Shown piece after piece: positions 1,991 to 18,129 of a DNA stretch of 64,000 bases. The notes below the pieces were generated by a model. It did not search any database. It saw only the letters and a list, made by a program, of their open reading frames with translations, and was not told the origin of the DNA. The first letter of the stretch is position 1. The number at the start of each line of letters is the position of its first letter. The stretch comes from Prostheceraeus crozeri (lineage: Eukaryota > Platyhelminthes > Polycladida > Euryleptidae), in assembly GCA_907163375.1 (NCBI GenBank), contig CAJQUW010011309.1, positions 1 to 64,000 of the forward strand, in the 5' to 3' direction. The position numbers were made by a program, and so were the translations under genes.

Positions 1991-2766
1991 ATGGTAAGTC
2001 GCTACTTCCCTCCCTCTCCTCTTGAACGTAAACTTAATACAATCTTTTTTCATTTTCAGGCATTACTCCATCTGCTGCACTAGTAGGACAAAATGACGGT
2101 CCAAAACGTTACAAGGTTCGCTCCGATCAGATCATCTACAACTGAGGGCCAGTGGAAGAAACAACCAAGGTACATAATCCTACACCGCTACAGCGTAAAT
2201 TTAAACAAGTCTTGCGTTATGACGATCATAGCGTAGTACTCCAAACGGGAATGCTCCCTTCCACGGATGTCAAGATAATGCGCAATCAGTATGGGGACTA
2301 CATACTGATCCCGTGAGTACGTACATTCGCCGCCAACTCGATATTATTGAGGAGTACGTGACATTAAATATGGACATTCCTTACTCCTCTTGCTCAAGAG
2401 TGGAAAGCGAGAGATGACAAGGATACTCCCTATAGAAAGATTTGGGATGGTAATCAAATTTGCCTACCGGTATCACATTGGTGTACTTACTATAAGAAGG
2501 AGGGAGATCATTCAACAATCATCACATGCGACGAGCTCGGAGAAGGTACTTGGGATATCCTTTTCAAAGTGAATGGACTATATTATGGTCAGCACAAAGA
2601 TAATAAAATAGCCTCTCTCTCCATGCATATGGAATCCATCCTATATATTCCAAAACCAGCCAGCGTAGATGACATAATTGATCAAATCCTCAACAGCAGT
2701 GGTACGAAGCGCAAGTCGGAGAAGAATGCTACATCAAAACGCAAATCAAAGAAGGAGAATTACTAG
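1991..2766 (+). pseudogene. First spliced Polinton gene, unknown function, frameshifted
   Basis: I do not recognise the family. The first coding exon appears to be only the ATG (1991-1993), followed by an intron at 1994-2059 (GTAAGT ... TTTTCAG, 66 bp) and an exon starting GCATTACTCC. Copy B has the same arrangement with a 67-bp intron. Conserved blocks include RYKVR, KVHNPTPLQRKF, YIRRQLDIIEE, LYIP and a lysine-rich C-terminus (KRKSEKNA, KRKSKKENY) that could be a nuclear signal. Copy A has in-frame stops and indels (near 2071, 2141, 2314 and 2380); copy B has different indels, so neither locus encodes a full protein. It is the first gene inside the left repeat and has its own TATA box. The product was perhaps about 220 residues, basic at its end. 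Confidence 0.6.
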
Positions 2767-2800
2767 TCCTTTCCTAACTCTACCCTATGACAATTCGCTT

Positions 2801-2926
2801 ATGTGCTTTGAGTGTCGTAGACGTGGTCTTATTAGATACATTTTACTTCTTCGTTGCCATCATATCATTTGTGTATTTTGTCGTGAAAAGCATCGATGTA
2901 ATTCTTCATTTTGTAATATGTTATAG
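2801..2926 (+). CDS. Small Cys/His-rich zinc-binding protein, 41 aa
   Basis: The ORF contains a Cys pattern MCFECRRRG ... RCHHIICVFCREKHRC ... FCNML, which looks like a minimal zinc knuckle or half a RING domain. Copy B (38824-38949) is open over the same length and differs at only a few residues, which argues for a coding sequence. The reading frame stays open upstream over the end of the preceding gene in both copies, so it may instead be an exon of a longer product. Function unknown. Confidence 0.45.
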   Translation: MCFECRRRGLIRYILLLRCHHIICVFCREKHRCNSSFCNML

Positions 2927-2960
2927 AACGCTTCCTTAGATGTGTAAATTTCCGTTTTAG

Positions 2961-3509
2961 GCTTCTATCATCATTTTTATGGATTGTGAGGGTGAACCTG
3001 TACAGGAGCTCAGTGCTATTGCTATGAACAATTGGACATATCAGATTGTTAGTGTCTATCATCAACATGCCAACTGCGATCCCAATGTTGATCAATGGGC
3101 GAGAAAACACATTCATGGACTTAATCTGAAATATTTGCAAGACTATGGCTTTTCTTGTGAGAGTGCTCTTCTTATTGACTTTAAACGATGGTTAGCTGCT
3201 TTCAATGTTATACGCATCTTTTGTAATAATCCTGGTAAGGAGAGGAAAGTATTTCCCAATCTAATCATTGATGATATTTTGCTCCCGCCTTGGGATAGTA
3301 GAGTGAATCAACATTATCATGAAGTCACGAAACGTTTTAAGGATTTGTGTGTTCCTATTTTGTCTGTTCGTTGTAGTAGCTACGTTCATAACCAATGCTT
3401 CTTTCCTCCTTACCTCAACACTGCCAAAGTCCTGTATGGTTATCATTGCTCGCTGTATGATAGTTATCAGCTGTATCTATTTTATCTCTTTCAAACCATT
3501 GATTTATAA
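2961..3509 (+). CDS. DEDDh-like 3'-5' exonuclease candidate, ~176 aa
   Basis: The first ATG is at 2979. The protein opens with D-x-E (Asp2, Glu4: MDCEGEPVQELSAI), has HIHGL at about 45-48 and ends with HCSLYDS (His156, Asp161). This is the order of exonuclease motifs I, the HG loop and motif III in the DnaQ/DEDDh fold. The motif II Asp is less clear; Asp98/Asp99 in LIIDDILLPPW are candidates. The six codons before the ATG (encoding SIIIF) supply the usual first beta strand. They follow a TCCGTTTTAG acceptor-like site at 2951-2960 that is conserved in copy B, so the real N-terminus may come from an upstream exon. AATAAA follows the stop at about 3530. The role is probably proofreading or end processing for PolB, but the family call rests on motifs only. 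Confidence 0.55.
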   Translation, partial: ASIIIFMDCEGEPVQELSAIAMNNWTYQIVSVYHQHANCDPNVDQWARKHIHGLNLKYLQDYGFSCESALLIDFKRWLAAFNVIRIFCNNPGKERKVFPNLIIDDILLPPWDSRVNQHYHEVTKRFKDLCVPILSVRCSSYVHNQCFFPPYLNTAKVLYGYHCSLYDSYQLYLFYLFQTIDL

Positions 3510-3596
3510 TGCATGCTTGTTACCGTTATTCAATAAATGTTACTATGAGAAGAGTTGTTGTTTTCATGCAATGGATGGGTTAGATAAAGGGCGATC

Positions 3597-4007
3597 ATGT
3601 CTTTCTCAAACGACTGCGGAACATTACGTTTTCATAGGCAAAGTTTAAAAGGAGCTGTTCAAGATTATGTGATAAATTTTCATAAAGATGAGACTGACAT
3701 CGAAGCAGTGCTCGATGATGCTAGCACTCTATTTCTAGAGTTAATGAATACATTCTCTGATAGCATTGTCATGGCGCGATTAGTTGCGAAAATTAAGTTT
3801 AGTCATTTTGGAAAGGAAGAGGTGGAAACTCGCTCTTTCCATTTTACTTCTTATTCAATGGAAGTGGTAGATCACCCCGAAGAATTTTTTAAAAGACATA
3901 TGATAAAAATTGCTGAACGTCTTAACGCATTTAACCATCATGGTAGCAGTCTAGTGATTGAAGCGATTTCAGATATTCACATTCAACTTTCCATAAAGAA
4001 AAATTGA
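3597..4007 (+). CDS. 136-aa protein paralogous to a PolB N-terminal domain
   Basis: The pattern F-H-F ... EVVDHPEEFF ... ERLNAFNHHGSSLVIEAI ... IHIQL matches residues ~160-235 of the element's own PolB (FHIPSSP, EVVDYESW, IDKFNERDSGLIFDGI). A related stand-alone domain is, from memory, common in invertebrate Polinton proteins, but its function is unknown to me. It is intact in copy B (39628-40035), suggesting selection for longer than the neighbouring broken genes. It lies between the exonuclease-like gene and the RING-like gene, whose ATG follows within three bases of its stop. Confidence 0.65.
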   Translation: MSFSNDCGTLRFHRQSLKGAVQDYVINFHKDETDIEAVLDDASTLFLELMNTFSDSIVMARLVAKIKFSHFGKEEVETRSFHFTSYSMEVVDHPEEFFKRHMIKIAERLNAFNHHGSSLVIEAISDIHIQLSIKKN

Positions 4008-4009
4008 AA

Positions 4010-4333
4010 ATGCAGTGGTACTTGATTGTAGCACAACTGGTTTTCGAGCTATGTCTGCTCACTCTCGAAGTATATTCCTTCTGTACATGCGTCTATTATT
4101 TAGAAAAGGCTAGCAAATTCATATCTTCAAAAAGACTTGCTATAGACATCAGTAACGGTGAAACTATGTGTTGCGATGTATGTAAACGAAAGGATGGAAA
4201 TGAAAAGCGCATCTTCAAGAGATGTAAGCATGCTTTTTGTCAACGCTGTTTCATACGTAATTGCATTCAACTTTGCCAATGTAACCACTGTGATATTGCT
4301 CATTTCGAGTGTCACTTATGCCGCAATAGTTAG
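4010..4333 (+). CDS. Membrane-anchored RING-like zinc-finger protein, truncated
   Basis: I place the start at ATG 4010 because copy B begins at the equivalent ATG. Residues ~2-33 form a hydrophobic, probably membrane-spanning segment (YLIVAQLVFELCLLTL). After it come CCDVCKRKDG, CKHAFCQRCF and clustered Cys/His residues ending FECHLC, resembling a RING or PHD-like cross-brace. Copy A has a TAG where copy B has a TGG codon, removing the last ~11 residues including a Cys-x-Cys pair. The likely role is a membrane-tethered E3-ligase-like or scaffold protein; no enzyme activity can be read from the sequence. Confidence 0.6.
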   Translation: MQWYLIVAQLVFELCLLTLEVYSFCTCVYYLEKASKFISSKRLAIDISNGETMCCDVCKRKDGNEKRIFKRCKHAFCQRCFIRNCIQLCQCNHCDIAHFECHLCRNS

Positions 4334-4384
4334 TACCTATGCAAATGTGGTAAAGATAGGTTTTAGCAAAGACTAACACGGAAA

Positions 4385-4741
4385 ATGGCGAAACGTAAAA
4401 TGACGAAACGTAAAAGTCAAAAGTTTTCTTCAGCCATTCAAGCTCTCCGACGAATGAAAGCAAATCAGCGATACAATGCTATACGACATGCTAACGATAA
4501 ATTCATTTGTGAAATTATTTCTCATGTGAGAAAGTTGAGGACGAAGAAATTAGCACCAAAACAACGAAAGTTACTTAAGCGATATGCTACAAAATTGCGT
4601 TTCATCTCCAATCCTAAAGTCGCCCTTCAAAGAAAGAGGAAAACTCTAACACAAAAGGGCGGTTTCCTTTCAGCAATACTTCCAATGATAGCTCCTGCCG
4701 TGGGCAACCTATTGGGAAATATCTTTGGCTCTAAGCGTTAA
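4385..4741 (+). CDS. Basic core-like protein with GG site and hydrophobic tail helix
   Basis: The 118-residue protein is highly basic for its first ~85 residues (KRKMTKRKSQK, RKRKTLTQK). QKGGFLSAILPMIAPAVG follows, and the C-terminus is short and amphipathic to hydrophobic. The Gly-Gly followed by a hydrophobic helix resembles a cleavage site of an adenain-type protease and the layout of adenovirus core or lytic proteins; this is inference. It is conserved in copy B (40397-40756). Its end overlaps the region just before the ATPase start. It probably binds DNA inside the capsid. Confidence 0.6.
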   Translation: MAKRKMTKRKSQKFSSAIQALRRMKANQRYNAIRHANDKFICEIISHVRKLRTKKLAPKQRKLLKRYATKLRFISNPKVALQRKRKTLTQKGGFLSAILPMIAPAVGNLLGNIFGSKR

Positions 4742-4772
4742 TTATGCAAATGTTGAGTCTCAAAGTAATAAA

Positions 4773-5372
4773 ATGGATTTCAGACTTCAATGCGATAAAG
4801 TTCTGACTGTATCAGGTCCATCTCATGCAGGTAAAACTGTTTTCACGCTGAATTTATTGGATAAAAGAAGGGAGTTGTTTAGGGAACCTATCAATCGAGT
4901 GATTTGGTGTTATGGTATTTATCAACCGTCGCTGTTTCAGGAATTGCAAAGTCGCAACTTTATTCGACATGAAGGAATTATTCCAGTGGATAAACTTCAG
5001 TCTAATGATGTTGTTGTATTGGATGATTTATTAAAAGAAAGTAAGAATTCAAAAGATGTTACAGATATGTTCACTCGCGCAGCACACCATAAAAGGTGTT
5101 TTATCATCTATATTACACAAAATTTGTTTCCTGATGGAAAAGAAGCTCGTACACGAAACCTGAATACACACTATTATGCTATTTTCAAGAATCCGCGAGA
5201 TAAAAGTCAATTTGAAATTTTAGCGCGACAAGTTGCACCCAGAGGATCAAAAGCCTTAATTGAAATTTTTCAAGCAGCTACTGAAAAACCATACGGTTAC
5301 TTATTCATTGACTTTACGCAAGAGTGTCCGGAAGAATTTAGATTTCGAAGTGATATTTTGAAAACTCCATGA
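4773..5372 (+). CDS. Genome-packaging ATPase (FtsK/HerA/A32-type)
   Basis: The protein has 199 residues from ATG 4773, which fits the ~200 residues usual in Polintons. Walker A is GPSHAGKT at residues 15-22 and Walker B is DVVVLDDLL at about 82-90. TQNLFPDGK and RNLNTHYYAIFKNPRD are typical later family motifs. The enzyme would hydrolyse ATP to pump element DNA into the capsid. An open frame extends upstream to 4725 without an ATG; copy B shares ATG 40788, which supports the start used here. Copy B has a Thr-to-Ile change in Walker A and a nonsense codon. Confidence 0.9.
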   Translation: MDFRLQCDKVLTVSGPSHAGKTVFTLNLLDKRRELFREPINRVIWCYGIYQPSLFQELQSRNFIRHEGIIPVDKLQSNDVVVLDDLLKESKNSKDVTDMFTRAAHHKRCFIIYITQNLFPDGKEARTRNLNTHYYAIFKNPRDKSQFEILARQVAPRGSKALIEIFQAATEKPYGYLFIDFTQECPEEFRFRSDILKTP

Positions 5373-5385
5373 TTATCTACAAACT

Positions 5386-6078
5386 ATGAGTTCTTATTCT
5401 CGCATGATTGTTATTCCTCAGGATGAATATGTACAATTGACTGCCATGCAGCAAGTAAAGCAACCTCTTGCAAATCAAATGTATAGGAAAGAAATAGATT
5501 ATCAGCAAAATGTTCACATCAAAGATCCACATCGTGCTGTATTATTACAATCGGAAACTGTTGAGCAATTGAAAAACTTGAAGAATAAGATGCGTGACTC
5601 TGTATCGACTGCTACACCTTTAGCATCTCGCGCACATGCCATATCTCTTTTCAACAGTATTGAACCCCATCTCAATGTAAATGATAGAGGAGAAATCATT
5701 ACAGATGAAAATAAAGTGATTGATGCTTCACGTTATGAAGACTTGATTCAGTATGCGACACGTAGAAAGCGCCGTCAGGGCTATGTTCCACCTGGTTGGT
5801 CATACTTTCTTAAACTATTGAAAAAGCATAATGTGCCAAAATTTGCTTTAAATAATGAGACATTGAAAGAACTTGATTCAACAGTGGCTACTACTCCAAT
5901 GCTTCAGGCGATGAAAATGCCAACAAATTGGTTTAAGACGTCACCTGCTACATCCCCTCCCACACTCACTAAGCAAACAAGAGGAAGAACTCGACGTAGA
6001 TCTACATCGCCACTAAAACTGGTAAAAGGAAAACGTAAAACAGCTCCTCCTAGGAAATACATGTTCTCAGACTATTAA
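5386..6078 (+). CDS. Conserved Polinton protein of unknown function, 230 aa
   Basis: Near the N-terminus is VIPQDEYVQLTAMQQ, and mid-protein YVPPGWSYFLKLLKKHNVPKF looks like a short folded module. The C-terminal third is rich in Ser, Thr, Pro and Arg/Lys and ends KYMFSDY. The start, 13 bases after the ATPase stop, is shared by copy B (41402). From its position between ATPase and integrase and its start pattern, I believe it belongs to one of the family-wide unassigned Polinton proteins, but I cannot name which. No catalytic motif is visible. Confidence 0.6.
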   Translation: MSSYSRMIVIPQDEYVQLTAMQQVKQPLANQMYRKEIDYQQNVHIKDPHRAVLLQSETVEQLKNLKNKMRDSVSTATPLASRAHAISLFNSIEPHLNVNDRGEIITDENKVIDASRYEDLIQYATRRKRRQGYVPPGWSYFLKLLKKHNVPKFALNNETLKELDSTVATTPMLQAMKMPTNWFKTSPATSPPTLTKQTRGRTRRRSTSPLKLVKGKRKTAPPRKYMFSDY

Positions 6079-6079
6079 T

Positions 6080-6271
6080 ATGAAGCAGATGTGTTGCTTG
6101 CCATGTAATGAGCCGCCAGAGGTGAATGTCGTTGTCACTTGCACTTGCTGCGCCAGCTCTCATAATGAAACCCTAAGCAATGTGAACACGATCGCAAAAC
6201 CGCTAAAGCTAAATGCTGCAGTTGTTGTAAATGTAGAAAGGCAAGAAAGAAAAAAGATGAGAAGTAGGAAA
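6080..6271 (+). pseudogene. Small Cys-rich ORF, fused to integrase by a 1-base loss
   Basis: The ORF starts right after the preceding stop with MKQMCCLPCNEPPEV ... CTCCASSHNE. In copy B (42075-42275) it continues as a separate 66-residue Cys-rich protein (KSCGWCKCKK) ending after the integrase start, in another frame. Copy A lacks one base near 6170 (GAAACCCTAAG versus GAGACTCCTAAG). It therefore slips into the integrase frame and produces an apparent 421-residue fusion. The lost frame still codes Cys-rich sequence (CCSCCKC) up to the TAG near 6271, so the separate ORF is probably ancestral. Confidence 0.6.
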
Positions 6272-7345
6272 AAGAGTCAGCCGTCATCGACTGAACGTTT
6301 GAAGTCAATCTATTATGATGTAAAACATCCGGCAGGATTTGCATCTATCAAGAAATTATCAAAAGCGAGTGGTCTTCCACAATCACAAGTGAAACGATGG
6401 TTAAAGGGTCAGGCTACCTATACACTCCACAAACAAGCGAAAAAGAAGTACCGCACCCGCCATTATATTGTTCATGACATCGATGAACAGTGGCAAGCAG
6501 ATTTGTGCGATGTTGCCTCCATTTCAAAACATAACTCGGGCAATAATTTTATTTTAACCGTCATTGATATTTTCTCGCGTTATGCGTGGGCTCAACCTTT
6601 AAAAACTAAAGAAGGGAAAGGAGTAGCAAAAGCATTCCAAACAATTTTTCGAGAAGGTCGCATTCCAAAAAGAATTCAGAGTGATCAAGGAAAAGAGTTT
6701 GAAAATCAGCATGTGACAAGATTATTTGAGAGGCATGACATTGAGTTGTTTAGTGTAAAGAGCGCTTATAAAGCTGCACTCGTTGAACGTTTTAATCGCA
6801 CATTAAAAAATCGCTTGTGGCGACATTTTACTGCCAACTTGACACAAAATTGGACAAAGGTTCTACAAGATACACTCCATGCCTACAATCACTCTATCCA
6901 TCGTTCTATTGGACTCAGACCAGTAGATGTAAATGCTGACAATGTAGATAAAGTGCGCGAATCATTCCAACGTAAACGCACTCATGTGAAAAGTGATGTG
7001 AAAATTGGCGATAAAGTTCGTATCTCAAAAGTGAAAAGTGTTTTTGCTAAAGGGTACCTTCCGAATTGGACAGAGGAGGTATTTACAGTATCAAGGATTA
7101 ATCAAAAAGACTCTCCGACCACCTACAAGTTGAAAGATTACGATAATGAAGAAATTGAGGGTAGCTTTTACCGCGATGAGATTGAGGTAGTCACTGAAAG
7201 TGAAACATATTTGGTAGAGAAAATCATTCGATGTAAAAAACGGCAAGGTGAAGAATGGTGTCTTGTTAAATGGACTGGTTATCCTTCAAGTATGAACTCT
7301 TGGATGCGTCGTGCCGACATCTTTCATCTAAGTGATCGACAGTGA
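6257..7345 (+). CDS. Retrovirus-like DDE integrase with C-terminal chromodomain
   Basis: I take ATG 6257 as the true start because copy B begins at the matching ATG (42241). The frame is also open back to 6080 through the fused Cys-rich ORF. After an N-terminal helical region (LKSIYYDVKHPAG, WLKGQATYTLHK) comes the rve core. Its catalytic triad is Asp in WQADLCDV, Asp in IQSDQGKEF and Glu in ALVERFNRTLK, with 33 residues between the last two. The C-terminus YLVEKIIRCKKRQ ... WCLVKWTGYP ... SWMRRADI is a chromodomain, which would steer insertion toward methylated histones. The enzyme inserts element DNA into chromatin. Copy B lacks the chromodomain through deletion. Confidence 0.92.
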   Translation: MRSRKKSQPSSTERLKSIYYDVKHPAGFASIKKLSKASGLPQSQVKRWLKGQATYTLHKQAKKKYRTRHYIVHDIDEQWQADLCDVASISKHNSGNNFILTVIDIFSRYAWAQPLKTKEGKGVAKAFQTIFREGRIPKRIQSDQGKEFENQHVTRLFERHDIELFSVKSAYKAALVERFNRTLKNRLWRHFTANLTQNWTKVLQDTLHAYNHSIHRSIGLRPVDVNADNVDKVRESFQRKRTHVKSDVKIGDKVRISKVKSVFAKGYLPNWTEEVFTVSRINQKDSPTTYKLKDYDNEEIEGSFYRDEIEVVTESETYLVEKIIRCKKRQGEEWCLVKWTGYPSSMNSWMRRADIFHLSDRQ

Positions 7346-7386
7346 TTCATGCAAAGTTGTAACTAACAATGTTTAGGGTTTGAGCT

Positions 7387-7842
7387 ATGAATCCAACTGC
7401 CTCATTTTATTCACGACCCTCCTATGTAAGTGGCGGAGGACAAATTTACATCGGTGCTCGCCGCCAACGTGGAGGTAGCATACTTGGTGCACTGAAATCT
7501 GTTGTAGCACCTCTCATATCCAATGTCGGTAGATCTTTAAAACGAAATGTTTTAAGTAATGCCGTTGGCTTTGCTGGTGATGTTGCTAGTGATCTTTCCA
7601 GAGGTAGAAGTTTTAAGAGCAGTTTGTTGAATCGTGGGAAGGAACGCGGTTTAAAAACATTGAAGCAGACCATTGCTGGTGTTACTCAAGGAAAGAAATC
7701 ACCTAAACGAATGAATAAAGGAAGGAGGAAACATCGCGGAGCTGGTAAGGTGCGATCTTCAGTCAAAAGGCATTCACGCAAACGTCGCAGAGGCTCTAAT
7801 CATTCATCAGGCGCTAAACGACGACGCTGCTATAACTTCTAA
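7387..7842 (+). CDS. Second basic core-like protein (GG site plus amphipathic helix)
   Basis: The 151-residue protein has an aromatic N-terminus (FYSRPSYVSGGGQIYIG), then RRQRGGSILGALKSVVAPL, a Gly-Gly followed by an amphipathic helix. A long Lys/Arg-rich tail ends AKRRRCYNF. The order resembles adenovirus pVI/core precursors: a protease site, a membrane-active helix and DNA-binding tails. That comparison is by layout only. It ends two bases before the capsid gene. Copy B keeps only the tail and has lost its stop. Confidence 0.6.
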   Translation: MNPTASFYSRPSYVSGGGQIYIGARRQRGGSILGALKSVVAPLISNVGRSLKRNVLSNAVGFAGDVASDLSRGRSFKSSLLNRGKERGLKTLKQTIAGVTQGKKSPKRMNKGRRKHRGAGKVRSSVKRHSRKRRRGSNHSSGAKRRRCYNF

Positions 7843-7844
7843 TC

Positions 7845-9122
7845 ATGGAGTGTAAAACTTCCGGTTTTTGTTTGTTCGATCAACAAGCCATACAGACAGA
7901 TATTCTTAGTTCAAGTATTGTAGATTATCATCCTCGAACAGCTGAGAATGCTGGCCCCATTGAATTTGTTATTCCTGGTGGTAGTGATGACTACATAGAT
8001 TTGAGTTATGCGATGCTTGATTTGAGGTTTAGAATTCAGCAAGCAGATGGAACTGCTATTGACGATACACATAAAGTTGGACTGAACAATTTACCATTGA
8101 CTACATTACTTCGTGATGTTTCTCTAACGATTGGAGAGCAGCAAGTGGAAGGTGGTCAAAGCGATTATCCCTATAAATCATATTTCAATCATGTATCACA
8201 GTTTCATCCAGCAGCACAAAAAAGTCATATGGAAGCCATGGGATGGTACAGAGATGAAGCAGGAAAATTTGATGTTGAAACAAACAGTGGCTTTGTAAAG
8301 CGATCTGCTATGATTAAAGATAGTAGAGTATGTCAGCTATATGGTCCGCTGAATTTAGACTTCTTTAGACAGTCAAAGTTTTTACTGTGTAATACCAGCA
8401 TGCGACTCAAGCTGACATTGAATAAGCCTGAATTTGCGCTGAATGCATTTGCTAAAGTTGACAATTTTAGAATTCATGTGGAAGATATTGCACTTTACAT
8501 TCGTCGAGTAGTACCGAATCCAAGTGTCATTAGAGGGCATGCTGAAGGCCTTAACCGCCAAAATGCCATTTACCCCATTCAGCATACAAAGCTTCTCACC
8601 TTTACAATTCCGAAAGATCAAAAGAGTTTCATGAAAGATGGCCTCTTTCCATCGGAAGCACCGAAGCTCCTCATGGTGGCAATGGTTGAAAATGATGCAT
8701 TTAATGGTAATATAAAGAAGAATCCTTTCAATTTTAAACACAATCAGTTAAGTGAAATTGCTTTACGTGTAAATGGTGTGAGTCATCCTGGTCCACCCTA
8801 CAAACCAGATTTTGCTTCAGATCAATTTATGCGCAGTTATGTTGATTTTATGGATGTTTTTGGCTTTTACAATACGGATGACACCAACGGACTGACTATG
8901 AAAGAGTTTAAGAGTGGATATACTATTTATGCATTTGATTTGACTGCTGACAGCGATATTAGTGCACCCTATCGTCAAGCGAACGTGCCTCATAATATTC
9001 GTTTGGATTTAACGTTCAAAAGAACACTACCTGAGACGATCAATGTATTAATTTATGCAGTCTTCGATTCAAATATTGAAATTACAAAGTATCGTGACGT
9101 GATTCTTCAGTATAATCGTTAA
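7845..9122 (+). CDS. Major capsid protein candidate (F54H12.2-like family)
   Basis: The 425-residue protein contains family motifs I recall from 'uncharacterized protein F54H12.2-like' Polinton proteins: DYHPRTAENAGPIEFVIPG near 28-46, DDYIDLSYAMLDLRF, NPFNFKHNQLSEIALRVNG, YAFDLTAD and a C-terminal VLIYAVFDSNIEI. These proteins are thought to be double jelly-roll capsid proteins; I infer that here from family knowledge, not from structure. It lies between a core-like protein and the protease, whose ATG overlaps its stop (ATGAG at 9122). It would form the capsid shell. Copy B (43333-44602) is interrupted. Confidence 0.75.
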   Translation: MECKTSGFCLFDQQAIQTDILSSSIVDYHPRTAENAGPIEFVIPGGSDDYIDLSYAMLDLRFRIQQADGTAIDDTHKVGLNNLPLTTLLRDVSLTIGEQQVEGGQSDYPYKSYFNHVSQFHPAAQKSHMEAMGWYRDEAGKFDVETNSGFVKRSAMIKDSRVCQLYGPLNLDFFRQSKFLLCNTSMRLKLTLNKPEFALNAFAKVDNFRIHVEDIALYIRRVVPNPSVIRGHAEGLNRQNAIYPIQHTKLLTFTIPKDQKSFMKDGLFPSEAPKLLMVAMVENDAFNGNIKKNPFNFKHNQLSEIALRVNGVSHPGPPYKPDFASDQFMRSYVDFMDVFGFYNTDDTNGLTMKEFKSGYTIYAFDLTADSDISAPYRQANVPHNIRLDLTFKRTLPETINVLIYAVFDSNIEITKYRDVILQYNR

Positions 9123-9583
9123 TGAGTTGGTTGACTGCTGACGATATTAAGACTAAAGTGCAGCGTAATGCAGACGAAGCGACGTTGAAAGCTTTCGATA
9201 ATGTCTATTCACTCGATACCTTACCACCTGCAGTAAATCACTATCCCATCTTTATTGTGCTAAACACTCATTCACAGAATTTAGGCGGTGAGCATTGGAA
9301 AGCGATCTTTATTGGAGAAGACCGACGTGGTGAACTATTTGACTCTCTTGCTCAACCTCCAAATATACCAACACAGCAGTGGTTGAGAAAACATACGCGT
9401 CAATATCAGCGAAATGAACGCATACTACAACATCCACTTTCATCAACGTGTGGTGCTTTTGTACTGTACTTCATCTTAAGACGTTTACATGTATCTCGAT
9501 TTGTATCTGTTATTCAAAACTTTTCATGTAATCCATCCTCTAATGAAAAAATGATTTGTAAGTTCTATCATGATTTGAAATAA
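9122..9583 (+). CDS. Adenain-like cysteine protease (capsid maturation)
   Basis: The protein has 153 residues. The triad order His58 (EHWKAIF), Asp74 (ELFDSL) and Cys110 (SSTCGAF) is that of the adenovirus/Ulp1-type C5/C48 proteases, with Gln104 in QHPLSS region as a candidate oxyanion residue. It would process structural precursors; the GG-containing basic proteins at 4385 and 7387 are plausible substrates. The stop TAA lies inside an AATAAA signal at about 9580, and the convergent TBP-like gene ends only 26 bases further on. Copy B has an early nonsense codon. Confidence 0.88.
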   Translation: MSWLTADDIKTKVQRNADEATLKAFDNVYSLDTLPPAVNHYPIFIVLNTHSQNLGGEHWKAIFIGEDRRGELFDSLAQPPNIPTQQWLRKHTRQYQRNERILQHPLSSTCGAFVLYFILRRLHVSRFVSVIQNFSCNPSSNEKMICKFYHDLK

Positions 9584-9609
9584 AAACATCATGTTGGAAA
9601 AATTGTTTT

Positions 9610-10155
9610 TTATTTTACAATCCGCTGGGTACGTACATACTCAATGAGATAGTCTAGGATCATATTTGCTTGTACATGAGATTTTAGTCCAGTAATGATC
9701 ACTTTACTATTATGAAAGATTGCCACATGCACAGGTAACCAACAACTAATGAGAGCTGCAGGAAAAAGTTCGGGTTCATAACACAAACTGTAACTGCTGG
9801 TACGAATCTTCAAAAATGATAGACTGTCACTCAATTGAGTAGAGATCACCATATTGTCCACAGTCAGATTCGACATCACACACCTCTCCCTCTTCCATAT
9901 CCGACGTAGTAGTCTTTGTAGCTCTAAGCGCATTGACTGCGCCGATGAATGAGAAAGGGCGCCGAGAATCTGTACAGTCCCATTTGGGAAGAGTTGAAGA
10001 TTCCGTGAATTGTTCATCTTCACCACTAACATTTGAGGACGACCCGGGTAATACTTGCTGTTTGGAAGCTGTTGGTGTAATGTTGTGAGATCGATTTTGG
10101 TGTAGAGTCTGAAGCGACGGAGAATGTTGACGATGGTGTAGCGATGGCGCTTCAT
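9610..10155 (-). CDS. TATA-binding protein (TBP) homolog, 181 aa
   Basis: The start is the ATG at 10155, giving 181 residues, the size of a TBP core. Two direct repeats are visible. Repeat 1 (8-86) has TIVNIL, KIDLTTLH, YYPGRPQMLVVKM, LQLFPNGT and ILGALS. Repeat 2 (94-175) has SNLTVDN, YEPELFPAALIS, VAIFHNSKVIITGLKS. These align with the TBP signature order. Both minor-groove Asn positions (10 and 96) and three of four DNA-kinking Phe positions (56, 131, 147) are kept; the fourth is Pro40. It probably binds core promoters, perhaps the element's own TATA boxes. The first ~330 coding bases overlap the 216-aa gene in another frame. Copy B has a homolog with a one-base loss. Confidence 0.85.
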   Translation of the reverse strand: MKRHRYTIVNILRRFRLYTKIDLTTLHQQLPNSKYYPGRPQMLVVKMNNSRNLQLFPNGTVQILGALSHSSAQSMRLELQRLLRRIWKRERCVMSNLTVDNMVISTQLSDSLSFLKIRTSSYSLCYEPELFPAALISCWLPVHVAIFHNSKVIITGLKSHVQANMILDYLIEYVRTQRIVK

Positions 10156-10477
10156 GATGAAAGAATGAGTAAATTGAGCGATGTACCTTCCTTTTATACT
10201 TTTCCCAACTACCTTGATGAAATGTGAAGTTAGTATGAAGTTGGGAATGATAGAGTTGAATTCGCCGATTGTTGACGCGCAACCAGATGCGATTTCCAAT
10301 ACGTGAATGTCTTTTCATATAGAAGTATTTTAAATCCTTCATGATATGATGTAGAGATTGAAAATGGCGATAAGATAAAGCAAACTCTCTTCTCACATTT
10401 CCAGTTGAATCTTTGAAATAGACGTTTCGATCATGATCCGTTTCAATACGTTGTAGGGAATCTAATTTCCAACTCAT
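9827..10477 (-). CDS. 216-aa protein overlapping the TBP-like gene; paralog of its neighbour
   Basis: Residues 1-105 (WKLDSLQRIETD, NVYFKDS, HHIMKDLKYFY, IQLYHSQ, WEKYKRKVHRSI) align with the 122-aa gene upstream. The last ~110 residues are hydrophilic and acidic (GEDEQFTESS, DMEEGEVCDVESDCG). They are encoded by the same DNA as the TBP-like N-terminus in another frame. Copy B keeps this C-terminal frame open to the identical stop (45301), although a TGG-to-TGA change interrupts its middle. Function unknown. The repeated pattern of beta strands then a helix with LTxRQFxxL is loosely like a PC4-type ssDNA-binding domain, a weak guess. A TATA-like GTATAAAAGG (minus strand, about 10191-10200) lies within its coding sequence, ~40 bases before the TBP-like ATG. 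Confidence 0.65.
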   Translation of the reverse strand: MSWKLDSLQRIETDHDRNVYFKDSTGNVRREFALSYRHFQSLHHIMKDLKYFYMKRHSRIGNRIWLRVNNRRIQLYHSQLHTNFTFHQGSWEKYKRKVHRSIYSFFHHEAPSLHHRQHSPSLQTLHQNRSHNITPTASKQQVLPGSSSNVSGEDEQFTESSTLPKWDCTDSRRPFSFIGAVNALRATKTTTSDMEEGEVCDVESDCGQYGDLYSIE

Positions 10478-10499
10478 GGTGCGTGATAGTCATGTCTGA

Positions 10500-10868
10500 T
10501 TAAGATTTGCATAGTAGGGCGATGAACTCACGACGAATAAATGTCATGATGGAGCGATGTATGTATCTTCTATACTTCTCCCAATTGTATTTGCGAAATG
10601 AGAAACAGTTTGCGGAATGAGAATGGTAGATTTGAATTTCATTTCTGTAATGTTGAAGCCAAACTTGATCACCCAGGGAGATGAATCTTAATGTTTCAAA
10701 ATATTCCAAATCCCTCATGATATCATTGAGGTTGACAAATTGTCGCCATGTTAATGTAATTCCTCTTGATGTATGACCATGAGAATTTTTGAAATGTACG
10801 TTTCCATCACGATCAACTCTGATATATTGTAGAGAGTCCAAAATCCAAGTCTTCATGATGTTATGCAA
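10500..10868 (-). CDS. 122-aa paralog of the 216-aa protein, unknown function
   Basis: Conserved blocks are ILDSLQYIRVDRDGNVHFKNS, LTWRQFVNLNDIMRDLEYF, LGDQVWLQHYRNEIQIYHS and WEKYRRYIHRSI. Copy B keeps it fully open as 120 residues (45990-46352) with a two-codon in-frame loss, the kind of change expected under coding constraint. The start could be Met1 (10868) or Met5 (10856). It lies head to head with the first WEVG gene: the two starts are about 24 bases apart, so they share a very compact promoter. It may be a small nucleic-acid-binding protein, but this is unproven. Confidence 0.65.
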   Translation of the reverse strand: MHNIMKTWILDSLQYIRVDRDGNVHFKNSHGHTSRGITLTWRQFVNLNDIMRDLEYFETLRFISLGDQVWLQHYRNEIQIYHSHSANCFSFRKYNWEKYRRYIHRSIMTFIRREFIALLCKS

Positions 10869-10891
10869 AGTTGCAGATTAGCAATATAAAA

Positions 10892-12289
10892 ATGTCGTTT
10901 TATCATATTTTGCTTAGCAATGCGGCTACAAAGAGATTTACTAGTAATCGAGCCGCAGTCTTTTCTACTCCCATTGATCATGCACAACAGCTAAATGGGA
11001 ATTGGGAAGTGGGTGTCACTCAACTTGTTTATAGCAACTGTGTCTATACTTTTGATCATGAGGTGATGACTATTAATATGAGACGTACAGCTGCTTACCA
11101 ATGTGAAAAGGGCTGCCGAGTATACATTCCACAGTGGTCAAAGAAAGATCTCTTATCATGTAAAAAGTTTATATATGATTTCTTGAATAAAGCGTGTAAA
11201 CATATTGCCCAATTTACTCCACACAATGATGATTATACTTATATACATCATGTAGTTGAGAAAGATTGGATTGTTGGTTTAAGTCCAAGTTTAAGAAATG
11301 ATTTAGGTTACCTCGCTAGCGCCTTGACAAGCTATGATAATTTTAACGTTAATTACCACATAAGTGCTCATAAACAGTTAATATATCGAGAGGAAGCTTA
11401 TTATGTAGATCTTATTCCAAAAAATGAGAAGACGTTGGTGAAGAAGATTGTGATTAAGCCAAGAAAGACAAACATGACTCCTGAAACATTATTGAAGAAA
11501 TTTAATTATCTCCTTCGAGTTGATGGTAAACAAGTGGCAACATTGACTTATATTAAATCATCTAATCATATTGCAATAAGTAAATTAAATGATGATGATC
11601 TAGTATTAATTTGTTCAAAAGATTTTCATCAGTTCTTGCGACATCATTCTGCAGCTGTTCATGGAAAATTTAATATGCAACATTTACCATGTGAAAGGTC
11701 AAATCAATTTGATACAGAATGGAGCGTATCTTTATACAGAAAGTGTGTAGAGCCTTTCGGTGGTATCTTACATGAAACAAGAGTGCTGATGCCTCGCATC
11801 ATTACTTCAGTTAAATTGGTTGTAGATTATTTAAATGAAGTGATTAATGACCAACATATTTCATTTTCTGAAAAAGAAGGTACTTTGTCTCTCACTATAA
11901 GTGGAAAAGGTATTGAACTAATTATGGATAAAACTCTAATGGACATTTTGGGTTTTGACCAAAATATCTTTAAAAGTGGTACTGTAACCAAAGCTAGCGC
12001 AGACATGTCGCTATCGCGTCGTATTAACTATTTTCAGATATATTCCAATATTGGTGAAGATGTACGTGTGGGAGATGTTGAAGCTCCATTGTTAGCAATG
12101 ATACCATACCAGCCAAAGAGCTGCAGTATTTTATCTGAGCATACTTTCAAGAAAGTGCATTATACAAAGCTGAAATCAAACTACATCCCACAAATTGATA
12201 TTGCCATTTATGACGATGCTGGTGCGTTGATTCCTTTTCATAAAGATGCTGTGACAAGTATCACACTCCATTTCCGAATGAAGAGTTAA
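10892..12289 (+). CDS. Capsid-associated Polinton protein 1 (WEVG family), 465 aa
   Basis: The start MSFYHILLSNAATKRF is chosen at ATG 10892 because the family begins this way and copy B agrees (46383). NGNWEVGVTQLVY near residue 39 and the C-terminal TSITLHFRMKS are family marks I know from invertebrate Polinton-like proteins. They lie beside capsid genes and are likely penton or minor-capsid related. No enzymatic motif is visible. It is followed by a second paralog in tandem (12329). In copy B it is cut at 46826 by the large deletion. Confidence 0.65.
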   Translation: MSFYHILLSNAATKRFTSNRAAVFSTPIDHAQQLNGNWEVGVTQLVYSNCVYTFDHEVMTINMRRTAAYQCEKGCRVYIPQWSKKDLLSCKKFIYDFLNKACKHIAQFTPHNDDYTYIHHVVEKDWIVGLSPSLRNDLGYLASALTSYDNFNVNYHISAHKQLIYREEAYYVDLIPKNEKTLVKKIVIKPRKTNMTPETLLKKFNYLLRVDGKQVATLTYIKSSNHIAISKLNDDDLVLICSKDFHQFLRHHSAAVHGKFNMQHLPCERSNQFDTEWSVSLYRKCVEPFGGILHETRVLMPRIITSVKLVVDYLNEVINDQHISFSEKEGTLSLTISGKGIELIMDKTLMDILGFDQNIFKSGTVTKASADMSLSRRINYFQIYSNIGEDVRVGDVEAPLLAMIPYQPKSCSILSEHTFKKVHYTKLKSNYIPQIDIAIYDDAGALIPFHKDAVTSITLHFRMKS

Positions 12290-12328
12290 TGCAAACGTAT
12301 GCTAATATATTTTTCCAATGTGAATAAT

Positions 12329-13849
12329 ATGGAAAGTGAAAATAAGGACTCGTTTCTAATCTACTTGCCCAGTAATGCTTCTATGAATAAATTTCCCAAA
12401 AATAAACCATCAGACTATCGAGTAGAATTAAATCGCCCACTGCATTTAGAAGGTGAATGGGAGGTTGGCGTTTCTAGTATTTGCTATGATAGCAATATTC
12501 AGAATGTGAATGATTTGGAAGAAATGATATTGACTCCTCGCACCCATGATGGAATAACGATGAATAATGCATTTCAGTTCCCATACAATTTAACATCAGA
12601 TGGAAAGTGGAACTATGAATGGATTCAGATAAAATCAGATTCTTATGAGCCATTTGGGAATGAGAAAATTATTAAGGCATTCAACAGTGGTAATACTTCC
12701 ATCATGAAGAATAAAAATCAGAAAGCTTATGAGTTTACTATCTATCATTGGAGTGGGAGACAGTTCCTCCGCTTTCATTCTTTTACTAAAGGTCTTACGC
12801 TGAGGTTGGATAGTGAATTCTATCCGCATCTCGGTTTTGGTCATGGACTACATCTAACGTCAATTGCTACTGCAAATGTTAGAAAAGTTTATTCAAATCG
12901 AATCAACAAATTTCATTATAGATTTAAAATATTTGATGAAGATGTTGTAGAATGCGAAGAACGCATCATTTTGAAAAAGCGTGGTGTTCAACCTTTATCA
13001 CTTATTGAGTTAGTAAAACGATGGAATGAGACTGTGGGTAAGAAGTATGGAGAGAAAATTATGGCGGACAAAAATAAGTTGGTTATTCAGAAATATAATG
13101 ACAAACTTACAGTTTATTTCTCTCCAACCTTGCGTCATTTTGTAAGACATTATACACCTATTATTGGAAGCGGTGTGGTATATGCTTCTCATGAATATCA
13201 CACTAAAGCTGATTCAGTTAATGATGAATGGTGGGTGGACATCTATGGCGATCGCATCAAGAAAATTTACCAGTCTTATGAAGAATCTAAAGTTGCTATC
13301 AATATAATGCCGCGTCTATATCATACAGTTGAAAGCTTCATTCATGTAGTAAATCCTTATATACAACAGAAGTTGAAGCATGTGATGAAAAGTAAATATG
13401 ATGTAAAGACACACCACATTTCGTTTTCAATTGAAAATCAACGCGTTGTTCTGAGACTGGGTGATGACATTCAATGTCAATTGAGTAAAAATTTGAAAAA
13501 ACTCTTTGGTTTTTCAATGCTACAAACTGTGTTTGCTGCTGCGCATACGATTGGTATAGAAACACCAATGACACTTGATAAACATGAACAGCACCTTTAC
13601 ATTCAAAGTGATTTGATTCTACCTATTTCTGTTGGTGAGAAAAAAGAATACATTTTACGTGATTTCATTCATGATAAAGACGCTTCATATGGAATAGTCG
13701 AGAAGATGTTTGAATCTATTTTCTATCATCCCGTCGTCAAACAAACTATACCCTCTATTGCTATCAAAATTACCAATGGTTTACAAGAGTGCATCCATGT
13801 GAAAGATACTAAATCCCTCATAACGTTAGTGTTTCGGAAAACAAAGTGA
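12329..13849 (+). CDS. Capsid-associated Polinton protein 2 (WEVG family), ~506 aa
   Basis: The paralog of the preceding gene has LIYLPSNASMNKFPKN, LEGEWEVGVSSICY and a final SLITLVFRKTK in the same positions. I favour ATG 12329 (ESENKDSF then LIYLPSN); an in-frame ATG at 12299 adds ten residues. Overall similarity to protein 1 is low outside these motifs, so the duplication is old. Having two such genes in one element suggests two structural roles, for example base and spike; this is inference. It is wholly missing from copy B. Confidence 0.65.
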   Translation: MESENKDSFLIYLPSNASMNKFPKNKPSDYRVELNRPLHLEGEWEVGVSSICYDSNIQNVNDLEEMILTPRTHDGITMNNAFQFPYNLTSDGKWNYEWIQIKSDSYEPFGNEKIIKAFNSGNTSIMKNKNQKAYEFTIYHWSGRQFLRFHSFTKGLTLRLDSEFYPHLGFGHGLHLTSIATANVRKVYSNRINKFHYRFKIFDEDVVECEERIILKKRGVQPLSLIELVKRWNETVGKKYGEKIMADKNKLVIQKYNDKLTVYFSPTLRHFVRHYTPIIGSGVVYASHEYHTKADSVNDEWWVDIYGDRIKKIYQSYEESKVAINIMPRLYHTVESFIHVVNPYIQQKLKHVMKSKYDVKTHHISFSIENQRVVLRLGDDIQCQLSKNLKKLFGFSMLQTVFAAAHTIGIETPMTLDKHEQHLYIQSDLILPISVGEKKEYILRDFIHDKDASYGIVEKMFESIFYHPVVKQTIPSIAIKITNGLQECIHVKDTKSLITLVFRKTK

Positions 13850-14154
13850 AGTCTTTATACAACATTTATTGAAATATGTACATGAATGTGAAGGAATAGA
13901 CTTTATACAACATCCACTGAAAATATATACATGAGCGCACTTCAATAAACATTGTTATATACAAAAAGTCTTTTTACTTCGTGAAGGGTGGAAATATACA
14001 GGGATAGGAAAAATGTCTTTCAGTGGAAAAGTCATCACATGGGGAATGTACAGATGTGGACACATATTCACAAGGAAAAAACAATCTCATGCGATACATA
14101 AAACAACAATGTTTATCTACAGAAATCAACATCAAAATACTAAGTTAAGGATGA
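13850..14154. other. Gap between convergent genes with a zinc-finger relic
   Basis: The gap holds two imperfect ~57-bp repeats beginning CTTTATACAACAT (about 13854 and 13911) and an AATAAA at about 13945. At 14038-14121 on the plus strand a degraded C2H2 finger can be read across a frameshift: GHIFTRK followed by NNLMRYIKQQC. It resembles finger 1 of the element's PolB (CGHIFTRKWDLTRH), although polB lies on the other strand. No intact gene is present. Confidence 0.5.
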
Positions 14155-17100
14155 TTATGCTAAGACGTCTCCTGAATGTGGTAGTGTGAGTTTAATTCTT
14201 TTGGGTGGTGGTATGTTTGTGTCAGGATGTCCATGTGGAAGAGATATGTTGTGTTCTAGCCAGCACCTCTTATCCTCCCATGCTGAAAGCGCCCGTTTCC
14301 TAAAAGTATGAGTTTTGATCTCATGCGACTTAGATTTTAAGATTGTCATATTGACAAACGTTATATTTTTATTTCTATAGGCTTTCCTGAAATTCTTATG
14401 TTTCATGTTAGAGACCAATGATCTTGATATGCCTTTAGCGCGCTTAATGCTATCATCACTATCCTTTAATTTCATAGAATACATTTTAGGGCGGAGGAGA
14501 ATCATTTCAGCTATCTCCTTCCCTGCTGTCTCATCCTTAAAGCAGCCAAGTTTTGCCTTATTTTTGATGGAGTATAGTGGATGATTAGCAGGATAATTTG
14601 ATGTATCAAAATATCTTTCTAAAGATTTTCCTACTTCATTAAAATTTAAATCTTTTTGAGTGGTAATACCTAAAAAGAAACTATCTGTGTCACCACCCAA
14701 CAAACGAACCTCTTTTACGAGAGGACACGGTTTTAGTATTTTATAGAAGAGTTGATACATTTCAAGCTTGGAGTAATCTAGAACAGCTTGACCAATATAG
14801 ATGGGTTTGCACAACTCAACTTCAGATTTTATCATTTTAATACCTACAAGATCCTCATCGATTATGTCTCTATCGATGAATAGAGGTGATGAGATCAATT
14901 TGTGATACTTTTGATCATCATTAACTAGTTTGTAGTTTACGCGCTTTCTAACATCCTCCATCGTCTTACCAAATAGACTGTTGTTCTTATATTTATAAAA
15001 ATCTTTTTCAAAATTATTTTGGGCTAGTGCACGTTTCTGACTGTTACTATCTATGTAGGGTTTGAGGAAGGCTTTCTGTCTAAATTTAATAATGCGGTGA
15101 ACTCTTTTTAAAATCATGCCCATTTCTAAATAAAATTTTAAGATGCTAAAGTGGACTAGATAGTTTTCCTTATCATATTGAGTGAGTAAAAGTTTGCGAC
15201 AAGGCTTATACTTGGGTTGTCCACATGATTCTAAATCTTTATGAAATTGTTTCATAAAGTCGGAAAACATATCTTTACTCACTTCACCTGATTCGGGTGC
15301 GAGTGGAAAATCTACGGTTTTATGTTTAATATTATTTGGATAGATTAGATCTATCTCAAAATAATATCCCCATTCACCTTCATCTGGAATTGCTAGTATG
15401 TTGGAAGGGTTGGAGAAATGTTGAATTTCACTATCATCTAACCAGCTAAACTCAGAGTGAGGTAGCGGTTTGGATAATGAACTACCATACAAATTATTTT
15501 GGTCATAATACTTCAGATGAGTCTGGTCATTACCTACTATTTTTGATTTTAACCTATGTTTATTTACAAATGTGAGACCACCGCGAATTCCTCGCTCAAA
15601 TAAATTATACATCTCTGGATCTTGTAAGAGATGAATGGTCTCACCAGTCATTTTAAAAGCAGACTTAAATGACATGGCTGGCAGACTGACAAAGTGGACG
15701 GGATCTAACTTATCTTCTTCTAATGCCACTCGTCGAAACTCCTGAAATACATCAGCCAGCAAAAATACATCTAACTTAAGGTAGGCAATCATATATTCAC
15801 CAAATGTATGGCAGTCAAATTTTATCCATGCATCTTGTGCATGATCATAATCTTCGGTCTTACATTCTGCGCCGCTCAAATCATTTTTAAATTTATCTAT
15901 GGGCGGAAGAGAAGTCTCGCCGAGTTTACTAATTGCATCAAAATATGCATATGGAAAGACTCCTTTCCGTGTGATGACTTCATCGGTTAGATTTGGATAT
16001 TGTTTCTTAAGATTTTGTGTTAGTGGAAGAGACTTTAGATTTTGCACGAGAGAGGCCAGTGATGCAGTCATAAATTGGTAGGAATCTAAAAATTTTATAT
16101 CAAAATAGACCGTCTTATTTTCTTTAGTTTTATCGACAGGCACTTTTGCTGTCATGGCCATAAACTTCTCTCTCGTTTGTGCTATTACATCAAGCTTCCA
16201 CTCTTTCATTTGACCTAAACCTCCTTTTATTATCATATGGCTGTCGTAGCCCTTGAAATTATGGAAAATGACGGGTAATGTACGCCGCTTCATCCTCAGC
16301 GAAAAATTACATTTTGAACAGAGTGCGTTTCTAAATTTACCAGTGATGTGGTCATGGTCGCGCACTTTCTTAATCTTATCATCGTCAAATGTTTTCCTAC
16401 ATTTGGGGCAAACGTTGCAACTATCAAATTTTGCTTGATCATCTGCTGTCATATGCAATGATCTGCGATAGAGTTCACCATCATACTTTTGTTGAAATTT
16501 TACAGCCTGTTCGAGGAATTGTAGGAATTGGTAAATACAATCCTCACCTTGCCAGACGTGCATTTTATTTTTTCTATTTTGGAAATGGTCATGCCATACT
16601 TCATAGCAGGAAATGGCTGCTGGTCGATGGATGTTATCATCGATATAACATTCGATGTCAGCATAGATGACACGAAGAGGACTTAGTTCATCGCCATTCT
16701 CTCTATATGAAAACTCCTTATCTTTGGGCATGCGTTCCATTTGCAGTTTACCTCGCTTACACCACTCATAATGAGTTTCAAATTTGTTTTTACTCCTAAA
16801 GTTCCGAATGCATCTGTCACAGTAATAAATCTCTGATGAGGTAGAATTTCTTAAGTGGTGGTATAAGCGAGAGATTTTGGGAATGCCGCAGTAGTGCCAT
16901 TCCTCACTATCATCCTGTCTTACTAATAAAAGGTTGACAACATGATCATAACAACTCGAACGCGAGTTGTAGCGCACACCCTTCAATCCCTTTTCCCAAA
17001 CATGGAGAACTATTTTAATGTTGTTCAATTTTTCAAATTTTTCTATATCTTTAATTTTCATATCGTCACTATTACAGTCATCGAAGTTTAATTCATTCTC

Positions 17101-18129
17101 CCACTGCCTATAGCTATATGTACGATTTCGATTCGCATTGATATCATTATAGTGGAGAATGGAGAGGACAGCATATTTAAAACATTGCGATTCGCAATCG
17201 ACATTGATGACTGCTGTTTTGTTTTTTAAATTTTTTGGAAGTTTAAAGGAGCCTCGACCACTATGATTTCCTAATAAACTGATTTTAAATAAGGCGGACT
17301 CAATGCCGTCAAAAATGAGACCGCTATCGCGCTCGTTAAATTTATCAATATTTAATTTTAATCCTTGGATGTGAAAATTTATCCAAGACTCATAGTCTAC
17401 AACCTCGGTTGCAGGAGAGGAGGGTATGTGAAACTCCAACCTCTCTATTATTTGTCCAGTATGGTGGTCGATTTTTACATATTTTATTTTAAGATAGATG
17501 AGCGCCTTCATCCTAAAATTGTCTAAATTGTTGAAGAGCGCTTCTATCAATGATGAATTTTGATGAAACCATTCCTCAAAGTTAGCAATGGTTTCTGAGG
17601 AGTCCATCTGGTAGTTCCTCACTAAATTATTTATGGACACTTCAGTGAGTTGGATAGAGGAGGTACCGTTGGTGTAGCTATCGTTCGTGTGTGTATGTTG
17701 AAGTCTGTGCGAAGATAGTTCAAAACGTGTCTCGAAAGACTGAGCGCACAAGTCGCAAGAAAAGGAGACGACGTTAACAGAATCATCCCCACCTCCGGAG
17801 ATTGATGCCGGCTTAGGTCGACAAACACCTCGCTTGATGTGTCGGGTGAGATCCCATTTCCTCGTGAAGATGTGCCCACAGTCAGCACATTCCCACTCGT
17901 TACCATGTCGCGACAGTTCTGAGCTGGAACTCACATCGCCTGAAAGAGAAATCATTCTATCATCTCTGTTCAAGCCTCAGTGTATTGTTGCAACCTACCT
18001 TGACTCAATAACTCTAAACTTTCCTCGAGAAGGGAGGGCGTTGGTGATGAAGTTGATGCCTGAAATTGAGGAAGATGCTATGAACCACACGTTTGAGGGA
18101 GATGAGAGAGGAAATCTTCAACTTACCAT
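14155..18129 (-). CDS. polB: Family B DNA polymerase, protein-primed type, spliced
   Basis: By the exon model the protein has 1282 residues: ATG alone (18127-18129), intron 18060-18126, exon 17999-18059, intron 17940-17998, exon 14155-17939; phases agree. Without splicing, the nearest ATG in the long frame is 17955. In long-frame numbering (counted from 17973) the order is: two C2H2 fingers (29-51, 73-94); the domain shared with the 136-aa protein (160-235); a NVDCESQCFKYAVL region (257-270), possibly protease-like; a finger (385-405). Next come ExoI Asp439/Glu441, an EndoVII/HNH-like insert (519-555, DHDHITG), ExoII HNFKGYD (571-577) and ExoIII YLKLD (731-735). The polymerase motifs follow: A YDQNNLYG (823-830), B KNNSLFG (996-1002) and C GGDTDS (1093-1098). 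It replicates the element, probably with a protein primer. It starts divergently from the 143-aa gene. Confidence 0.92.
17940..18126 (-). other. Two short introns at the 5' end of polB
   Basis: Intron 1 (18060-18126, 67 bp) runs GTAAGT to AATTTCAG directly after the ATG. Intron 2 (17940-17998, 59 bp) runs GTAGGT to CTCTTTCAG. The middle exon (61 nt) joins both sides in phase and reads MASTSSPTPSLLEES. Copy B keeps intron 1 at 49000-49066 with the same 67-bp length and the same ATG/GTAAGT junction; its second donor is altered. Confidence 0.7.

Follow-up and report, generated by a model that had tools for sequence, protein, structure and literature searches.

The locus and its genes

The window, by which the whole analysed stretch of 64,000 nucleotides from the flatworm Prostheceraeus crozeri is meant, contains two copies of a Polinton-like element. 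Its main features are listed below.

16..24569: element 1, with inverted termini starting AGTAGTAAG at both ends (termini read)
37062..52926: element 2, internally deleted, with inverted termini AGTAAGG (left) and AGTAGTAAGG (right; termini read)
4773..5372, plus strand: packaging-ATPase-like ORF (weak Pox_A32 match, E 0.025)
6080..7345, plus strand: integrase, rve and chromodomain (Pfam)
7845..9122, plus strand: ORF assigned as major capsid protein (by position; homologues adjoin the TBP gene in lineages W and X, see below)
9122..9583, plus strand: Ulp1/adenain-like protease (weak matches)
9610..10155, minus strand: Polinton TATA-binding protein (TBP) gene, 181 aa (profile, PDB matches, residues and fold)
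9827..10477, minus strand: ORF-B, 216 aa, overlapping the first 108 TBP codons (first 60%) in another frame (ORF analysis)
10500..10856, minus strand: ORF-A, a paralogue of the ORF-B N-terminal domain, 45% identical (sequence comparison)
45159..45629, minus strand: second TBP copy, frameshifted between F and P of YEPELFP and ending after 156 aa (comparison of the window copies)

Element 1 (24.6 kb) ends in AGTAGT and carries the long inverted termini characteristic of Polintons/Mavericks; AGTAGT termini are described for Mavericks in the available part of PMC8097293. The long inverted termini of element 1 hold tandem repeats of about 280 nt, at 504-1822 and 22878-23742. Inspection by eye revealed no matching 6 bp that would represent a target duplication at element 1 or 2.

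The integrase is clearly recognized, with rve at 41.9 bits and Chromo at 29.5 bits, both above the cut-off. Both matches of the protease are weak (C48, 19.5 bits vs a cut-off of 20.7; ASFV S273R, E 0.011). The Pfam scan of 7845..9122 gave no match, capsid families included, and its assignment as a major capsid protein is putative, based on position; the ATPase role of 4773..5372 is likewise presumed from gene order. Pfam, PHROGs and PDB scans of a 1272-aa ORF, a candidate PolB, return only endonuclease VII and zinc-finger parts, and its PolB motifs are presumptive. In the viral_contigs collection, no relatives were confirmed with the protein queries A1, MCP, ATPase, integrase and WEVG1, and the sole match to the PolB pattern, locus L001, was set aside, as it looks like a phage contig.

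Identity of the TBP protein

The initial annotation had read the 181-residue minus-strand protein at 9610..10155 as a duplicated TBP core; coordinates, strand and length are all correct, and two of the checks it proposed, profile comparison and structure prediction, agree with that reading. The protein matches PF00352 in two stretches with 71.6 bits (curated cut-off 22.9; E 4.9e-20), and both repeats score far beyond chance. TBP is contained in 35 of the 36 PDB sequences that it matches (best E 2.1e-12), and in the fold and identity check every one of the 44 PDB entries matched at E ≤ 1e-3 is a TBP. The predicted structure adopts the saddle fold; since archaeal TBPs served as the alignment of the model, this prediction is not independent of homology. 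Folded as a single sequence, the protein gave a useless model (pLDDT 37.5). A search returned 61 homologous proteins, and every one of the 62 members of the resulting family alignment matches PF00352. Collectively, profile, fold and residues support the assignment of the product as a TBP.

The gene was also said to be present in both element copies. It does occur twice, but the second copy is frameshifted and encodes only 156 aa, so that only copy 1 is intact in the window.

DNA- and TFIIB-contacting residues

Residue positions follow the yeast numbering of a table in PMC12529657, in the part available, and were mapped by hand onto an alignment with PDB sequences. As had been claimed, both groove Asn (N10 and N101) and three of the four Phe (F56, F131 and F147) are present. 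N10 is retained in 50 of the 50 family rows with a residue there and N101 in 62/62. The fourth intercalating Phe, yeast F99, corresponds to P40 of the window protein and is Pro in 58 of 59 rows with a residue; the complete set of four, a trait of canonical cellular TBP, is thus reduced to three.

In yeast numbering, N69, N159, V161, F116, P191 and F207 are unchanged wherever a family row has a residue, and F190 and T215 are each unchanged in 61/62. Other contacts are substituted throughout the family: A101 by M (62/62), L114 by Q (58/62), V122 by Q (62/62) and T124 by L (56/62). The C-terminal lobe is also altered, with A, S or T for L205 and A for G192 in all 62 rows. This family-wide pattern identifies the N-terminal lobe as the more remodelled one.

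The glutamates C.L3.2 and C.L3.4, which contact TFIIB, are retained as E127 (61/62) and E129 (62/62). According to the available text of PMC7221094, they are variable in viral TBPs, with about 40% conservation at one of them, and TBP is accompanied by a TFIIB-like protein in most of the viruses that encode it. The 18 window ORFs scanned, the TBP gene among them, yielded neither a TFIIB nor an RNA polymerase. Because the DNA contacts are changed (F99P, L114Q, V122Q) and both TFIIB-contacting Glu are kept, these residues suggest a re-aimed TBP that would work with host TFIIB and Pol II.

Copies, lineages and selection

The host genome (2.05 Gb, 14165 contigs) was searched, and 150 of 10983 loose candidates were scored. 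The best-scoring match is the canonical TBP of the host, on contig C9306; a gene on contig C3829 is presumably of the TRF2 type, which points to a bilaterian host. The 42 Polinton-type TBP loci inspected, a lower bound on the copy number, comprise 19 of a window-like lineage W, 3 of lineage X and 20 of lineage Y. The W copies are 80-99% identical to the window, and the X and Y proteins are 41-45% identical to the window TBP and 55% to one another. The TBP frame reaches at least 170 aa in 25 of the 38 loci with the start in view and is shorter in 13.

Polinton-type genes adjoin TBP at the 22 of 42 loci where the neighbours were read (11 W, 3 X, 8 Y): homologues of the protease, capsid module and integrase in the W and X copies, and PolB in the Y copies. 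The gene therefore belongs to a Polinton-like element, as first proposed; the neighbours at the W and X loci and the AGTAGT ends of element 1 both bear this out. No capsid gene was found near the Y copies on C11032 and C3824, read on both sides, or C243, read on one side; in the flanks of these copies, all integrase matches are weak (22-25% identity) and may stem from retrotransposons. The Y elements at L099-L101, L103, L104 and L108, with the flanks L114-L118, combine PolB and TBP in many copies, no capsid gene being found there.

The tree comprises 70 rows, four homologues below 155 aa having been left out, and the tool issued a long-branch warning. Sixty Polinton-type TBPs, namely 57 homologues from databases plus a single representative of each of W, X and Y, share one side of a branch with 100/100 support, and the host genes on C9306 and C3829 fall outside this clade. 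Polinton-type TBPs form an old clade of their own, separate from cellular TBPs. The 100/100 branch, to which the long-branch warning still applies, rules out that the host TBP was captured recently.

Among nine W copies, pN/pS is 0.41 for TBP, 0.22 for the protease and 0.23 for the capsid gene. Between the window and the copy L129 (84.5% DNA identity), TBP gives 0.27 within the ORF-B overlap and 0.37 beyond it, and the ORF-B frame 0.68. Against the close copy L128, the TBP values are 0.59 and 0.56, on 6 changes each, and in lineage Y selection looks weaker (0.58, five copies). The TBP frame is under purifying selection.

Overlapping frame and TATA box

ORF-A and ORF-B are tandem paralogues spanning 10147-10856 on the minus strand. 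ORF-B stays open for 108, 101 and 112 codons into TBP in single sequences from W, X and Y, respectively, an openness matched by synonymous reshuffling of TBP in fractions of only 0.0002, 0.001 and 0.0004 (5000 trials each). It is open for at least 90 codons in 30/38 loci, two of these without a stop in view. A PC4-like fold was considered for ORF-A and ORF-B and rejected, the hhalign P of 0.033 and 0.042 reflecting a faint, non-significant helix pattern. At L108, a pyrimidine tract followed by TTAG (2770-2846) directly precedes the Y ORF-B and resembles a splice acceptor.

A 209-nt block at 9827-10035 differs from its counterpart at about 45301-45509 in only 2 positions, against about 15% in the flanks; the next longest near-identical stretch elsewhere between the window copies is 72 nt. 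Dual coding was discarded as the cause, since the diverged copy L129 has no such island and conservation does not extend into the overlap past 10035. The block probably stems from gene conversion or recombination.

Upstream of the TBP gene, and still within ORF-B, lies a TATA box.

10191..10198, minus strand: TATAAAAG, TATA box at -43 of the TBP ATG, within ORF-B (33/38 loci)

TATAAAAG stands at -43 in both window copies, although the ORF-B frame of copy 2 is broken. The pattern TATA[AT]A occurs at -40 to -50 of the TBP ATG in 33 of the 38 loci with the start in view (X, 3/3; W, 17/18; Y, 13/17). By eye, Ile-Lys is found at the corresponding place in 9 of the 11 subfamily-1 homologues with at least 14 upstream residues, in one case shifted by one residue; this dipeptide is what ATA-AAR would encode. 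Ile-Lys is absent from P0016, P0028 and two extended subfamily-2 rows. Another factor that may favour the TATA-box sequence is the coding of ORF-B (Tyr-Lys).

A second promoter element

A different element precedes other genes of the window.

4338..4345, plus strand: TATGCAAA, -47 of ATG 4385 (basic protein, weak adenovirus pX match)
4743..4750, plus strand: TATGCAAA, -30 of ATG 4773 (packaging-ATPase-like)
7348..7355, plus strand: CATGCAAA, -39 of ATG 7387
10862..10869, plus strand: TATGCAAA, -30 of ATG 10892 (WEVG1)
12288..12295, plus strand: AATGCAAA, -41 of ATG 12329 (WEVG2)
10506..10513, minus strand: TATGCAAA, -36 of the ORF-B ATG 10477 (one mismatch in copy 2)

Of all 7-mers in the 90 nt upstream of 14 gene starts, ATGCAAA is the most frequent (6/14), and a top count of six arises by chance in 3 of 5000 random sets of 14 windows and in 6 of 5000 random sets of 14 ATGs. 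The count used 14 of the 18 listed starts; a non-ATG start, PolB with its uncertain start and two right-end ORFs were dropped, and none of these four has the motif within 90 nt. At -60 to -15, ATGCAAA precedes 6 of 14 gene starts vs 4 of 852 other ATGs. The motif is missing at 8 of the 14, including integrase, protease and, in W, the capsid gene. Motif-less genes trail motif-bearing ones with gaps below 15 nt (4773-7345 and 7387-9583), as if co-transcribed. No TATAWAWR, even with one mismatch, is found within 90 nt of the six motif-bearing ATGs.

The motif is unchanged in copy 2 at three of four alignable sites, compared with 28.5% of all 8-mers. It recurs in 10/10 or 11/11 W copies, which are closely related, at each of four promoters. 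The sequence ATGCAAAT, which is also the octamer bound by POU factors, is present at three W promoters (4339, 4744, 10512) and before ORF-B is retained in the diverged copy L129.

In lineage X, TAAGCAA precedes WEVG1 and WEVG2, AAAGCAA precedes the capsid gene in 3/3 copies, and the TBP gene has a TATA box only. The X homologue of the 7387 gene has AAAGCAA in one of three copies and TATAAAG at -51 in two of three, so that the two promoter classes are not clean. The pattern [TA]A[AT]GCAA, chosen after inspection of X, occurs before 3/5, 3/6 and 3/6 starts of the X loci vs 4/365, 5/360 and 2/360 other ATGs, and in the window before 3/14 starts vs 7/874 other ATGs. In two Y copies it precedes 0/5 starts each, vs 2/418 and 3/408 other ATGs.

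Proposed mechanism and alternatives

The initial annotation had also proposed self-directed promoter recognition. This proposal is strengthened by the host-type TATA box at the TBP gene and the different shared element at other genes, and it is now best regarded as likely: the Polinton TBP probably steers host RNA polymerase II to the genes of its own element. We somewhat favour a sequence of events in which host TBP would act first, starting early transcription of the Polinton TBP gene at its TATA box. The product would next bind other promoters of the element, where its conserved C-terminal stirrup (YEPELFP and both TFIIB-contacting Glu) would bring in host TFIIB and Pol II and thereby turn on the virion genes. 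A purely late role fails for Y, because this lineage keeps TBP with no capsid gene found and no motif at the tested starts.

The most speculative step is that the changed DNA surface, mainly N-lobe P40, M42, Q54, Q62 and L64, would confer a preference for TAWGCAA. Polar Q54 and Q62 facing the central G:C step would fit such a reading. That the Polinton TBP itself recognizes TAWGCAA is conceivable, with the balance leaning against it. The full combination, an ancient TBP with an N-lobe remodelled for TAWGCAA, acting with host TFIIB and Pol II, itself turned on by a host TATA box located within an overlapping gene, and together forming a private core-promoter code, is more tentative still and on the unlikely side. 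If true, it would amount to a cascade of two steps, with a single small viral subunit standing in for TBP and neither polymerase nor TFIIB supplied by the virus.

The principal competitor, though unlikely, is that the protein is an additional, ordinary TBP working at TATA boxes, including that of its own gene, either as a positive loop or to raise the dose, while TATGCAAA is an octamer for a host POU factor. The octamer at three W promoters, the TATAAAG in two of three X copies and the C-lobe contacts to the TATA half, most of which are conserved, all fit this view. The motif nevertheless sits at the TATA position, 30-47 nt from the ATG, at six starts devoid of TATAWAWR; its X form, TAAGCAA or AAAGCAA, is not an octamer, and the principal N-lobe substitutions hardly vary, if at all, within the family. 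Retained TFIIB contacts together with the loss of one intercalating Phe would suit a decoy that dampens host transcription or the antiviral response by occupying TFIIB of the host or TATA boxes, with no activation of the element. Such a decoy is improbable, as it leaves unexplained both the promoter element common to two lineages and the conserved groove Asn and three Phe.

Two further readings are less probable again, to about the same degree. A passenger, either a functionless captured host gene or a frame retained only through the ORF-B overlap, would account for the many broken copies (13/38 below 170 aa) and for the amplification of Y with weaker constraint (0.58) and no capsid genes found nearby; it conflicts with the TBP values of 0.27 and 0.37 beside 0.68 for ORF-B in the comparison with L129, with an old clade of no recent host origin, and with contact residues for DNA and TFIIB that are near-invariant in 62 proteins. 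TBP has roles with Pol I and Pol III as well, and the joint retention of PolB and TBP in Y elements would agree with a service to Pol III or to replication of the element, for example at its termini, rather than to Pol II genes; the common element, which precedes protein genes at the spacing of a Pol II TATA box, speaks against it.

Relation to known systems

The view that no Polinton TBP had been described is upheld among the matches listed in open PMC full text, the literature covered here, with subscription papers outside its scope. PMC7786948, PMC11464507, PMC12085832, PMC10675990 and PMC10132985 pair polinton with TBP and, in the passages available, concern other matters, among them TBP genes that mirusvirus-like elements carry in an alga (PMC10675990). 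In the available passages pairing adintovirus with TATA, no TBP is described, the matches being an author name and a primer, and PMC11071308 contains none of the searched words. The further claim of a new kind of promoter recognition was too strong, as TBPs or mimics of them are already known from giant viruses, mirusviruses, poxviruses and herpesviruses. The novelty lies in a TBP that is carried by Polintons and keeps its TFIIB contacts, with no viral polymerase or TFIIB detected in the element, and also in the TATA box before the TBP ATG, the overlapping ORF-B and the second element at the TATA position of several other genes.

The logic resembles, by analogy, that of the beta- and gammaherpesvirus late TBP mimics, yet would be built from a true TBP with TFIIB contacts. 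As far as the available text of PMC12529657 goes, these mimics (KSHV ORF24, EBV BcRF1) are TBP-like proteins that bring host Pol II to non-canonical late promoters (TATTWAA) with no viral RNA polymerase; L114, V122 and T124 are changed there too, to S, N and N. ORF24 is a large protein of several domains, annotated as far as residue 752; it works together with five further viral proteins, does not have the TFIIB Glu and possibly fails to bind TFIIB. In contrast, the Polinton TBP is a bare two-lobe protein of 181 aa, a sequence-level member of PF00352 that has kept the Glu and shows no extra N- or C-terminal domains.

Giant viruses and mirusviruses likewise carry TBP genes in dsDNA genomes; in the available parts of PMC12085832 and PMC10132985, TBP is found in 59% of mirusvirus genomes and that of the giant virus CpV-BQ1 is thought to redirect host Pol II. 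Their genomes are large, unlike Polintons, and CpV-BQ1 has two TFIIB genes. Poxvirus VITF-3, which is TBP/TFIIB-like, also ranks among the closest known systems. Host TBP and TRF2/TBPL1 have the same fold as the Polinton TBP, and host TBP the same TFIIB stirrup. Vertebrate Mavericks/Polintons share AGTAGT termini, length range, the integrase module and the putative protease module, according to the available part of PMC8097293, from whose text the words TATA, TBP and transcription are absent.

Implications for Polinton biology

Polintons are regarded as close to the ancestral stock from which many eukaryotic DNA viruses arose, and to our knowledge little is understood of how they control their own genes. 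With the TBP gene, this control can be tested using a single small protein and short stretches of DNA. As a natural TBP whose DNA contacts have changed while its TFIIB contacts are retained, the protein is also useful for understanding how TBP chooses its sequence, and it may represent a small-virus counterpart to the herpesvirus late switch.
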